DNA of 64,000 bases from Halosolutus amylolyticus (GTDB taxonomy: Archaea > Halobacteriota > Halobacteria > Halobacteriales > Natrialbaceae): positions 434,001 through 498,000 of the forward strand of contig NZ_JALIQP010000003.1 in assembly GCF_023566055.1 (NCBI RefSeq). The letters are read 5' to 3'. Each line of letters opens with the position of its first letter. The stretch's first letter is position 1. Under the pieces are notes generated by a model. The model made no database searches. It was not told where the DNA came from and worked only from the letters and a program-made list of their open reading frames with translations. Made by a program: the position numbers and the translations under genes. Positions 2,942 to 52,490 of the stretch are shown piece after piece.

Positions 2942-3024
2942 CGTTTCCGGACCGCTGCCAGTCGTTTCCAGCGCAACCGCGACCGGGCTGTGGTTGTGCC
3001 GGCAAATCGGTACACCATTCCGTA
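2942..3024 (-). repeat. Palindromic stop-adjacent element, diverged copy
   Basis: Read along the gap gene (minus strand), this begins directly after the gap stop codon with TACGGAATGGTGTACCGA. It then carries GGCACAACC and GGTCGCGGTTGCG, which can pair into a stem of about ten bases. By eye it is about 75 percent identical over its first 68 bases to the elements at 45373-45452 and 51763-51841, in the same orientation to the upstream gene. The distal end is diverged. It could act as a terminator or processing hairpin between gap and pgk. Confidence 0.7.
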
Positions 3025-4095
3025 TCAGTGGACGACGGTCCGTTCGGCGTCGATGCTCCCCGATTCCCTCGCGACGTGCTTTGCGAGTTTGATCATCTGG
3101 TTCGAGAAGCCGTACTCGTTGTCGTACCAGGCGAGCACTTTCACGGTGTCGTTGGCCGCGACCATCAGGGACTCGAGATCGACGTACGATGCGAACGGCA
3201 GCCCGACGATGTCCCGGGAGACGATCTCATCGTCGGTGTAGCCGAGGACGCCGGCCAGTTCGTCGTCGGCCGCTGCCCGGATCGCGTCGAGCACTTCGTC
3301 TCGCTCTACGTCTTCGTCGATGTTGACGGTGATGTCGGTGATCGAGCCGTTCGGGACCGGGACCCGCATCGCCATCCCCTCGAGTTTTCCCTCGAATTCG
3401 GGGAGTACCTTGCTGGTCGCGCCGGCCGCACCGGTCGTCGTCGGAACGATGTTCTCGGCGGCGGCGCGGCCGCGCCGTCGCTTGTCCATGGGGCCGTCCA
3501 CGAGCCCCTGACTACCGGTGTAGGCGTGGACCGTCGTCAGGAGCCCGGAGACCACGTCGAACTCTTCGTTGAGGACCTGCAGGACCGGCGCGACGGAGTT
3601 CGTCGTACAGGAGGCGTTCGAGACGACGTCTTCGCCGTCGTACTCCTCGTGGTTGACGCCGTAGACGAACATCGGCACCGCTTTTTCGCCCTTCGGCGGC
3701 GCCGAGATGATCACTTTGTCCGCGCCGGCCTCGAGATGCTGGGCGGCCTCGTCGTGGGTCCTGAACAGCCCCGTCGCCTCGAAGGCGACGTCGACCTCGA
3801 GGTCGTCCCACGGGAGTTCCGACGGTTCGTGCTCGGAGAGCAACTGGAACTCCTGGTCGTCAACGAAGAGGGTGTCGCCGCGACGGGAGACTCCGTCGAG
3901 TCGGCCGTGAACCGAGTCGTACCGGAGCAGGTACTCCATGTCGTCGTCGTCCATCACGTCGTTGATTGCCACGAGGTCGACGTCGTCATGGGTCAGCGAC
4001 GCACGGAGGAGACACCGGCCGACCCGTCCGAAGCCGTTGAGTCCGATTCGGAGGGGCGCGCCGGTTCCAGCGCTGTCGTCTGTATCTGCGTCCAT
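3025..4095 (-). CDS. gap: Glyceraldehyde-3-phosphate dehydrogenase, bacterial-like (type I)
   Basis: A 356-residue phosphorylating GAPDH, converting glyceraldehyde-3-phosphate, NAD(P)+ and phosphate to 1,3-bisphosphoglycerate. The NAD-binding motif GLNGFGRVGR is near residue 18 and the catalytic motif SNASCTTN places the nucleophile at Cys163. HAYTG, the phosphate-binding ATSKVLPE region and the C-terminal WYDNEYGFSNQ are all present. This is the bacterial-type enzyme, not the archaeal type II GapN-like form. An acidic N-terminal extension of about 14 residues is typical of haloarchaeal versions. It is divergent from the trehalose synthase gene and upstream of pgk. Confidence 0.95.
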   Translation of the reverse strand: MDADTDDSAGTGAPLRIGLNGFGRVGRCLLRASLTHDDVDLVAINDVMDDDDMEYLLRYDSVHGRLDGVSRRGDTLFVDDQEFQLLSEHEPSELPWDDLEVDVAFEATGLFRTHDEAAQHLEAGADKVIISAPPKGEKAVPMFVYGVNHEEYDGEDVVSNASCTTNSVAPVLQVLNEEFDVVSGLLTTVHAYTGSQGLVDGPMDKRRRGRAAAENIVPTTTGAAGATSKVLPEFEGKLEGMAMRVPVPNGSITDITVNIDEDVERDEVLDAIRAAADDELAGVLGYTDDEIVSRDIVGLPFASYVDLESLMVAANDTVKVLAWYDNEYGFSNQMIKLAKHVARESGSIDAERTVVH

Positions 4096-31653: not shown

Positions 31654-31716
31654 TAGGGTCTGCTGTACCGATTTTTCGAATCGAACAGCAGAAGCCGCGT
31701 CGTTTTTCGAACGCGG
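31654..31716 (+). terminator. Two stem-loops after the ABC permease gene
   Basis: Directly after the TGA are two hairpins. The first (31660-31691) pairs CTGCTGT with ACAGCAG around a T-rich loop. The second (31695-31716) pairs CCGCGT with ACGCGG around CGTTTTTCGA. T runs within the loops and immediately after the gene suggest termination. The first 20 bases, ATAGGGTCTGCTGTACCGA, also resemble the start of the palindromic elements found after three other stop codons in this window. Confidence 0.55.
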
Positions 31717-41239: not shown

Positions 41240-41398
41240 CGTGACGGTACTTTCTGTGTGGACGAAAAGAGTCTTTCTCCTGCGTATCTCCCGCGATCGG
41301 CGGTGGACCCGCGGTCCTCGTACGGATCGTTGTAACGTGTTACCGGTGTTCCCCGCCCCGGTCGGGCGATCACCGGTAACGAATCACAACAGACCGTC

Positions 41399-41686
41399 TC
41401 AGTCGACGACCGTCTCGTCGATCGTCACCGACCCGCACTCCTCGACGGTGATCCTGTGGCCGCAGTACGTGAACGAGACGGAACCGCCGGGGCGGGACGC
41501 GTTCCCGGGCCGATCGGCAAAGATCGCGTCGAGCGCGTCGGGGTCGACGACCTCGTGGAGCGACTCGTACTCCGGCGGCCCGAGTTCCTCCGGTTGAACT
41601 CCCTTTACAGTTGCAACTGCCTCGACGACCGCCTGGCTCGGCGGCCGCTGAACCGTCGTATCGACGCCGTCACCGCCCCCCTCCAT
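41399..41686 (-). CDS. HalOD1 output-domain protein
   Basis: A 95-residue protein with the HalOD1 pattern SQAVVEAVATVKGVQPEEL, then LHEVVDPDALDAIFAD and VSFTYCGHRITVEECGSVTI. It is the second stand-alone HalOD1 protein in the window. A TTTATTCG box lies just upstream of its start on this strand. No receiver or sensor gene is adjacent, so its partner is unknown. Confidence 0.8.
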   Translation of the reverse strand: MEGGGDGVDTTVQRPPSQAVVEAVATVKGVQPEELGPPEYESLHEVVDPDALDAIFADRPGNASRPGGSVSFTYCGHRITVEECGSVTIDETVVD

Positions 41687-44877: not shown

Positions 44878-45372
44878 ATGTCCGGCGAGGATCCGGTGCC
44901 GTCCGATCGCGTCGTCCTCCTCACGGTCGCGGTCGTGCTGGGAACGGGCTGTCTGCTCGTCGTCGCGTTCGCGCCCGGACTGGTCCTGGACGGGTCGACG
45001 CCGTCGGAGTCGGGCGAGAGAGCGGAGACGCCGCTCGTCGTCGATCGGAACGTCACCGGGACGGGGGACGGGAACGAGACGGCAACTGCGGAGACGCCGG
45101 GAACCGACGAGGGGTCGTCCGAAGACGGGTCCGACTCGGAGACGGCGTCGGGAAGCAGTGCGGACGAACCCGATTCGGACCGGTCCGAATCGCGGAACGA
45201 ACGCGGCGGTGCCGATCGCGCCGATGGGGCGCCGGACCGCGAGGATGAGGAAAACCCGCCGGACGACGGCGACGGCCCGCCGGATCACGCCGGCGGTTCG
45301 GGGCCGCCAGACCACGCCGGGTCGCCATCTGACGGCGATCGCGGACCGCCGGATCACGCGGGCCCGGACTGA
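44878..45372 (+). CDS. Membrane-anchored low-complexity acidic protein with PPDHAG repeats
   Basis: A 164-residue protein with one N-terminal hydrophobic helix (about 12-35, VVLLTVAVVLGTG and on) acting as signal or anchor. The rest is Asp/Glu/Ser/Gly-rich and disordered-looking; the last 45 residues hold three PPDHAG repeats (GPPDHAGGS, GPPDHAGSPS, GPPDHAGPD). Histidine-containing repeats could bind metal or serve as a cell-surface spacer. I do not recognise a family. A palindromic element begins in the base after its stop codon. Confidence 0.6.
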   Translation: MSGEDPVPSDRVVLLTVAVVLGTGCLLVVAFAPGLVLDGSTPSESGERAETPLVVDRNVTGTGDGNETATAETPGTDEGSSEDGSDSETASGSSADEPDSDRSESRNERGGADRADGAPDREDEENPPDDGDGPPDHAGGSGPPDHAGSPSDGDRGPPDHAGPD

Positions 45373-45452
45373 TACGGATTGCTGTACCGAGTTACCGGCG
45401 CAACCGCCGCCCGGATCGCGGTTGCGCCGAAAATGACTTACAGTAAACCGTA
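45373..45452 (+). repeat. Palindromic stop-adjacent element, 80 bases
   Basis: It begins directly after the TGA of the preceding gene. Outer arms TACGGATTGCTGTAC and GTACAGTAAACCGTA (two mismatches when paired; one base between the inner T and arms differs here) and inner arms CGGCGCAACCGC and GCGGTTGCGCCG would fold the whole element into one long hairpin. The copy at 51763-51841 is nearly identical. It lies between convergent genes, so a bidirectional terminator role is possible, but its conservation is far above that of ordinary terminators. Confidence 0.85.
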
Positions 45453-45489
45453 TGACGTGTACGCCGGGACGTCGGCGCAGCGATCCGTA

Positions 45490-45903
45490 TCACTCGTCGG
45501 TCTCGAACTCGAGCGCGACGCCGTTGATGCAGTACCGTTTGCCGGTCGGCTCCGGACCGTCATCGAAGACGTGCCCGAGGTGGCCGTCGCAGTTGCTGCA
45601 GACGACCTCCGTGCGGACCATGCCGTGGCTCCGGTCGATCTTCGTCTCGACGGCGTCGTCGTCGGCCGGATCCCAGAAACTCGGCCACCCGGATCCGGAG
45701 CCGAACTTCTCGTCCGTCGTGAACAGTTCCTGGCCGCAACCGGCACAGCGGAAGACGCCATCTCCGTCGACGTTCAGCAGCTCGGAGGAACCGCGGGGTT
45801 CGGTGCCACACTCCCGCAGGACGCGGTACTGGTCGTCGTCCAGTCGGTCCCGCCAGTCGTCGTCCCGCTCCGATCGCTCGTCGTCGGACAGTTGGTCTGT
45901 CAT
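45490..45903 (-). CDS. msrB: Peptide-methionine (R)-S-oxide reductase
   Basis: A 137-residue MsrB, reducing methionine-R-sulfoxide in proteins. The two zinc CxxC pairs are CAGC and CSNC; the active-site motif is GKRYCINGVALEF with the catalytic cysteine; GSGSGWPSFWDP and GHLGHVFDDGP are the conserved substrate loops. An acidic 25-residue N-terminal extension is present. The start ATG precedes TDQLSDDE. It converges with the PPDHAG protein gene. Confidence 0.95.
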   Translation of the reverse strand: MTDQLSDDERSERDDDWRDRLDDDQYRVLRECGTEPRGSSELLNVDGDGVFRCAGCGQELFTTDEKFGSGSGWPSFWDPADDDAVETKIDRSHGMVRTEVVCSNCDGHLGHVFDDGPEPTGKRYCINGVALEFETDE

Positions 45904-48678: not shown

Positions 48679-48764
48679 CTATAGTAGCAACTGAAACGAT
48701 TTACACACTGATCGCAAAGACGTCCTGCGATCAGGTGTGCATTGACTTTCAGTTGCTACTATAG
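48679..48764 (+). repeat. 86-base palindromic element, copy 2 (best preserved)
   Basis: Terminal inverted repeats are perfect over 18 bases: CTATAGTAGCAACTGAAA at the left end and its complement at the right. Inside, ACACTGATCGCA and TGCGATCAGGTGT continue the palindrome with one bulge. It has no coding capacity, like a MITE. The flanks show no clear target-site duplication. Confidence 0.88.
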
Positions 48765-51762: not shown

Positions 51763-51841
51763 TACGGTTTACTGTACGTCATTTCCGGCGCAACCGCGAT
51801 CCGGAGGCGGTTGCGCCGGTACATCGGTACAGCAATCCGTA
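51763..51841 (-). repeat. Palindromic stop-adjacent element, 79 bases
   Basis: Read along the winged-helix gene (minus strand), the element starts one base after its TAG with TACGGATTGCTGTACCGA and ends GTACAGTAAACCGTA. It is nearly identical to 45373-45452 over its whole length, including the inner arms around CGGATCGCGG. Orientation relative to the upstream gene is the same as in the other copies. Confidence 0.85.
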
Positions 51842-51842
51842 A

Positions 51843-52490
51843 CTATGGAAGCGGGTTCTCGACCTCCTCCGACCGCGTCTCATCGTCCGGGTCGCTCTCG
51901 GCGAGGGTGATGACGTTCTCCCTCCCGACCGACGACTTCTCGATCGTGCCGTCGGCGTCCATCTGTGAGCAGATCCTGCTGACCTTCGACTTCGACCAGC
52001 CGGTCTCGTCGGCGATCTGGTGCTGGCGAATGCGACCCTGGTTCGCGACGAGCAGTCGGACCACTTTCCCTTCGTCGCTCAGAAGTTCCGGTGGCGTCTC
52101 GGGCGAGAGGTACCGTTCGTATCCCAGGTGATCGTCGGTGCGTGAGTCGGTGCTCTCGTCCGATTCAGTCGTCGCCTGCGTGGGCAGCGGAATCGACGCG
52201 ACCCCGACGTCACGTTCCGACAGCATATCCGCGAGACGGATTCCGACGAGTCCGCTGACGAGCAGGAACAGAACCGCGACCATGGTGACTTCCCAGATCG
52301 ATGCCGCACGGAGCGGTTGCATCCAGGACAACGGTCCACCGGAGTGGATGCCGATCCTGGAACCGATCGCCGGGATTGCGATCGCGTCTACTTCGGAGTG
52401 GTAGCTCGGAGCGGAAACCATGCCAATCGGGTCTCTGCTGTGGATCGACGCGATCGAGATTCCGACTCCGGTCTGGGTAGTGGACACCAT
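51843..52490 (-). CDS. Membrane-anchored winged-helix regulator
   Basis: A 215-residue protein. A polar N-terminal region leads to one hydrophobic helix (about 68-90, EVTMVAVLFLLVSGLVGIRL). After a Ser/Thr/Asp linker, residues 125-200 form a MarR/IclR-like winged helix: LLSDEGKVVRLLVANQGRIRQHQIADETGW (in part), SKSKVSRICSQMDADGTIEK as recognition helix, and a VGRENVITL wing. The DNA-binding part would face the cytosol. It sits between glmS and the glycan cluster, whose genes are plausible targets. Start uncertain within the first 25 residues. Confidence 0.75.
   Translation of the reverse strand: MVSTTQTGVGISIASIHSRDPIGMVSAPSYHSEVDAIAIPAIGSRIGIHSGGPLSWMQPLRAASIWEVTMVAVLFLLVSGLVGIRLADMLSERDVGVASIPLPTQATTESDESTDSRTDDHLGYERYLSPETPPELLSDEGKVVRLLVANQGRIRQHQIADETGWSKSKVSRICSQMDADGTIEKSSVGRENVITLAESDPDDETRSEEVENPLP

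Follow-up and report, generated by a model that had tools for sequence, protein, structure and literature searches.

The palindromic repeat of about 80 bp located at positions 45373 to 45452 of the window, i.e. of the whole 64,000 nt stretch of DNA analysed here, belongs to the transposase-less mobile elements (MITEs) and generates a 3 bp target-site duplication. It is non-coding and multicopy, carries terminal inverted repeats and a duplication of fixed length, and has empty sites in a relative. For this element, named TACGG element in the following, the best explanation, and in our view a probable one, is a MITE that duplicates TSA (S = G or C) at a target resembling a gene end and whose insertions are filtered by selection. 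No earlier account of the element was found in a literature search, whose coverage excluded most subscription journals.

The element is composed of the arms TACGGATTGCTGTACCGA and TACGGTTTACTGTAMGTCA, which enclose a 13 bp GC-rich hairpin stem. In the consensus the A arm reads TACGGATTGCTGTAMCGA and the B arm is imperfectly inverse to it, with the stem and a 10 nt loop situated between them; the terminal inverted repeats are TACGGATTGCTGTA.../...TACAGTAAACCGTA. The end motif matches the window 10 times, compared to 0.67 matches expected from shuffled sequences, and four clear copies, two near-identical and two diverged, were identified with a profile of intact copies. These copies, their neighbours and two weaker candidates are the following:

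2946..3024, minus strand: old diverged copy immediately 3' of the TGA stop codon of gap, left duplication gone and hairpin decayed
3025-4095, minus strand: gap gene with GAPDH domains, TGA stop codon adjoining the copy at 2946..3024
31654..31710, plus strand: weak A-arm relative after the TGA stop codon of an ABC-2 permease gene (7.4 bits, E = 4.7)
41321..41398, plus strand: old diverged copy (19.5 bits) with the B-arm end against the stop codon, reversed relative to the other copies of the window
41399-41686, minus strand: predicted gene, stop codon adjoining the B-arm end of the copy at 41321..41398
44878-45372: orphan gene without Pfam match, upstream neighbour of the copy at 45373, its TGA stop codon meeting the A-arm end
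45370..45372, plus strand: left TGA of the target-site duplication, at the same time the stop codon of the orphan gene
45373..45452, plus strand: young intact element copy (88.6 bits, profile of intact copies)
45453..45455, plus strand: right TGA of the target-site duplication
45453..45489, minus strand: possible remnant of an older copy, 37 bp, TACGGATCGCTGCGCCGA... (weak, E = 0.12)
45490-45903, minus strand: msrB/SelR gene, TGA stop codon directly preceding the remnant at 45453..45489
51763..51841, minus strand: young element copy of 79 bp, separated by a single base from the preceding TAG stop codon of the DUF7343/winged-helix gene
51843-52283, minus strand: DUF7343/winged-helix gene, ending in TAG plus one extra T before the element

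The near-identical elements of about 80 bases that the original prediction had placed 0-1 bases behind stop codons were thus recovered at 45373-45452 (distance 0) and 51763-51841 (TAG plus T), as was the diverged copy that follows gap (about 2946-3024). The 20-base relative at 31654, which had been counted as a fourth case, is not confirmed as a copy at its score of 7.4 bits and E = 4.7. Homology with two relatives (G001 and G002) stops exactly at the permease stop codon, and the A-arm-like sequence may be a relic or a chance match. With the possible remnant at 45453-45489, both convergent genes at this site may have received an element.

Each copy is situated between 3 bp direct repeats, TGA/TGA or TCA/TCA, which applies to nearly all intact copies (...CTGA[TACGG...CCGTA]TGAG... 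or the TCA equivalent). The elements as such are real, but these flanking direct repeats were overlooked. Of 50 young copies located in the tiled DNA, 41 have exact TGA/TGA or TCA/TCA flanks and a single one TTA/TTA, and the remaining flanks mostly deviate by one or two bases. With its length fixed at 3 bp and its sequence TGA or TCA, rarely TAA or TTA, the duplication corresponds to the 3 bp TNA duplication by which IS5-like or PIF/Harbinger-like elements are recognised. Empty sites in relatives, to which the original prediction had pointed as a check, were found when both flanks of a copy were joined and searched in G001, a congener of the window genome (G000). Sites lacking the element and carrying a single TCA correspond to the young copy at C2:197718 and to the old copy at C2:200630. 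The winged-helix site is empty in G001 as well, where the gene terminates with TGA, compared to TAG plus T in G000, and in the window genome the duplication at 51763-51841 is mutated.

Young copies fold into strong hairpins, with energies of -41 and -46 kcal/mol and z-scores of about -7. Together with the excess at stop codons in G000 over a null model of sequence preference (see below) and with 12 double changes that keep a stem base pair in mildly diverged copies, compared to 2.4 under independence, this folding would fit a mobile terminator, insulator or 3'-end mRNA processing or stability unit that is kept for the benefit of the upstream gene. We nevertheless regard such a unit as unlikely. 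The double-change excess of the stem is found likewise in the outer arms of the transposon, an outcome that subfamily structure or repair of the palindrome would lead one to expect, and in the old copy behind gap the hairpin is lost (z = -0.45). A scan of 45300-45550 for a hairpin plus T-tract, which does not reach archaeal U-tract terminators, retrieved no site, and the Rfam 15 covariance models retrieved no match in the window, so that a terminator or an Rfam RNA is unsupported by either search. Furthermore, the copies in G015, a genome of a third genus, lack a preference for stop codons, and both orientations are in use. Over 72 sites the A arm points toward the TGA in 41 and the B arm in 31 (p = 0.29), which rules out a fixed orientation. 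The claim that the element always has the same orientation is contradicted by this genome-wide split as well as by the reversed copy at 41321-41398 within the window, and the agreement among the four cases on which it was based is happenstance. The suggested mobile terminator or RNA-processing unit is unsupported, given that the scan retrieved no hairpin plus T-tract, that old hairpins decay, and that both orientations are used.

In about 40% of the G000 copies the 10 nt loop (element positions 36-45) is inverted with respect to the arms, although the arm haplotypes are the same, and mirrored polymorphisms common to both arms occur at positions 15/66 and 20/61. Loop inversion and mirrored polymorphisms suggest inversion or repair within the palindrome, by which its parts would flip or be copied from arm to arm.

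The search of the whole genome and of relatives that had been proposed revealed an element with many copies and a patchy distribution in the Natrialbaceae. By its core pattern, at least 85 copies occur in G000, for which a reversed control pattern gave no match. Among G000 and 40 relatives, matches were observed in 14 genomes, all of the same family, and in none of the 16 genomes from other families; of the two congeners, one has 4 matches and the other none, compared to 85 copies in G000. Matches listed from a scan of GTDB species genomes are likewise restricted to the Natrialbaceae (Salinadaptatus, Natrarchaeobius, Natronolimnohabitans, Natronococcus, Natronorubrum, Natrialba, Natrinema, and Halobiforma), and plasmids of this family carry the element, too. 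Viral contigs contained no match, and spread by viruses was dropped as an explanation.

The analysis covered 1.26 Mb of the G000 genome, 0.4 Mb from G015, and 0.3 Mb from Salinadaptatus halalkaliphilus (G014). The tiles on C2 and C4 and those of G014 were picked because they hold copies, which introduces no bias toward stop codons over other sites. In 918 kb of G000, a stop codon adjoins 23 out of 25 young and 17 out of 21 old copies. For young copies the observed share at stop codons is 92% in G000, 46% in G014 (12/26), and 15% in G015 (2/13), and the difference between G000 and G015 is significant (Fisher p = 4e-6). In the other named species, Salinadaptatus left out, 28 out of 50 young copies are located at stop codons by our own sum. 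The predicted insertion at stop codons therefore largely holds in G000, but it fails in G015 and with respect to a single orientation. Since the genome gene calls are our own codon-bias calls, chance or a gene-calling artefact has to be considered as the source of the association, to which we assign a negligible probability. Without weighting, stop codons account for 13.5% of the noncoding TGA/TCA sites, and against these sites the association has P about 2e-18. Moreover, on annotated public plasmids, independently of our own calls, 7 out of 11 copies exactly adjoin an annotated stop codon, namely those of genes encoding an archease, an FAD-dependent oxidoreductase, a PHP-domain protein, a glycosyltransferase, a VOC protein, a dienelactone hydrolase, and a universal stress protein.

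Statistically, insertion favours a palindromic target near CGAC-TSA-GTCG. Due to its resemblance to the common haloarchaeal gene end GAC TGA, TGA stop codons are better targets than other sites, with a mean target weight in G000 of 4.3 compared to 1.16 for other noncoding sites. In this motif model, which was learnt solely from non-stop insertions in other hosts (60 sites, positions assumed independent), the expected share at stop codons is 36% in G000, 20% in G014, and 32% in G015. The motif together with the loss of coding insertions accounts for G015, leaves a modest excess in G014, and leaves a clear one in G000, where 92% were observed against 36% predicted by sequence preference and restriction to noncoding DNA (p about 1e-8). 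Between convergent gene pairs of G000, in which an insertion endangers no promoter, 30 out of 34 copies are located at stop codons compared to 55-62% expected (p = 5e-5 to 8e-4), which corresponds to an about five-fold rate difference per target weight. It is not obvious that this further excess in G000 can be put down to selection against damage. It is conceivable, if improbable, that the mobilisation machinery in G000 recognises gene ends by more than the TSA motif, e.g., by a host factor or by the state of transcription or translation at the 3' end. If true, the element would target stop codons directly in this host and thereby evade selection.

Very unlikely, too, is an enzyme that truly targets stop codons by a route linked to the termination of translation or to the ends of mRNAs, rather than by a TSA motif alone. 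The high share of young G000 copies at stop codons relative to the motif expectation and the convergent pairs agree with such an enzyme, but copies of close similarity, with identities of up to 96-98%, are located in G015 and Salinadaptatus at TSA sites far from stop codons, including divergent promoter regions, and an intrinsic stop specificity is disfavoured by these two hosts. In addition, operon-internal stop codons of G000 are avoided although they are equally stop codons, and TAG, which makes up 22% of the stop codons of the genome, is almost never used by the element.

None of 148 copies is located in coding sequence, which makes up about half of the weighted target. Among 32 tandem sites, one has a co-directional gene within 30 nt of the stop codon compared to 30% expected (p = 1.3e-4), whereas equally tight convergent stop codons are not avoided (6/30 versus 22%). 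An enzyme that recognises a short motif is hardly able to make this distinction but selection is, and the absence from coding sequence together with the depletion inside operons points to selection after insertion. We propose that a transposase supplied in trans makes a 3 bp staggered cut at TSA. Insertion at a stop codon would give TGA-element-TGA, in which the reading frame still closes at its own stop codon and the element lies directly behind it; as the TGA is duplicated, the stop codon is rebuilt and the gene remains intact. Insertions in genes, operon interiors, and promoters would be purged, so that target preference and purging together would leave most copies directly 3' of stop codons, and host-dependent strictness of purging would make the association range from weak to nearly complete. 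Copies exactly behind unrelated genes are in accordance with a TGA target and its duplication, and a special terminator is not needed.

A gene-end-like target, combined with a duplication by which the stop codon is written anew, would be a simple route by which a parasite becomes harmless in gene-dense genomes. Since one element occurs in several hosts with about 15% to over 90% of its copies at stop codons, it may serve as a natural gauge of the purging of intergenic insertions. As a caution, repeats exactly behind stop codons are not necessarily regulatory.

Mycobacterial interspersed repetitive units (MIRUs) have likewise been described to insert at TGA-containing gene ends with the stop codon kept, and they are known from overlapping stop/start junctions within operons. 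Unlike MIRUs, the TACGG element avoids operon-internal stop codons (1/32 compared to 30%), is palindromic, and has a symmetric 3 bp duplication. With RUP of Streptococcus pneumoniae, Correia/NEMIS of Neisseria, and the haloarchaeal MITEs of Haloquadratum it shares a short, protein-free sequence with inverted repeats ending in TA, a stable hairpin, a target-site duplication, many intergenic copies, and mobilisation in trans, the transposase in case of the TACGG element being presumed (see PMC2229807 for a review of MITE traits and PMC3119063 for haloarchaeal MITEs). The reviewed MITEs are mostly A+T-rich and the targets of RUP hold a TA dinucleotide (PMC2229807), whereas the TACGG element is GC-rich, duplicates TGA or TCA at a palindromic gene-end-like target, and is in some hosts nearly confined to stop codons. 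SMR-A and PATE of Haloquadratum walsbyi are short transposase-free mobile repeats with palindromic features and a target preference, but without target duplication and, in case of PATEs, without inverted terminal repeats (PMC3119063); the TACGG element is likewise a short transposase-free haloarchaeal repeat, but duplicates its target. IS1272-type transposition replaces a target inverted repeat, with some copies close downstream of genes (PMC5678879). Both types are prokaryotic elements tied to palindromes, except that the TACGG element duplicates TSA and does not need a target hairpin.

A parent insertion sequence was not retrieved by a search for terminal repeats with TNA duplications on both sides. 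Among the core-less ends from about 125 genomes of the Natrialbaceae, no long element with matching ends was found, a search that misses ends sharing less than about 14 bp. No such element was found at 30 DDE_Tnp_1 loci either, and the PF01609 and PF13586 hits that were read, these being the transposase families covered, revealed no IS5-family DDE transposase with the terminal repeats of the element.

Same-ended relatives with other cores, nested copies, and joined-arm derivatives of 20-30 bp occur family-wide. The derivatives lack a core, e.g., TACGGTTTACTGTAATCCGTA followed by TGA (G000 C3:118202, G014:C11:72302, and G098:C114:15199), and may represent minimal units or products of deletion. 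Miniature elements that share the TSA duplication form a superfamily with ends of the type TACGG.., TAGGGATTATCG.. or TACTGTCGG.., and its members are often nested in one another (L122, L124, L128, L134, L135, L137, and L138). Head-to-tail neighbours of family copies, or insertions inside them, were observed at L118, L132, L136 (G015), and G000 C6:88910-89056. A second palindromic repeat family of about 85 bp, CTATAGTAGCAACTGAAAC...TTTCAGTTGCTACTATAG, is represented in the window at 48679-48764 and has many copies in G001 and G006. The TACGG element copy at G000 C2:22948 appears to be located inside a repeat of this second family.
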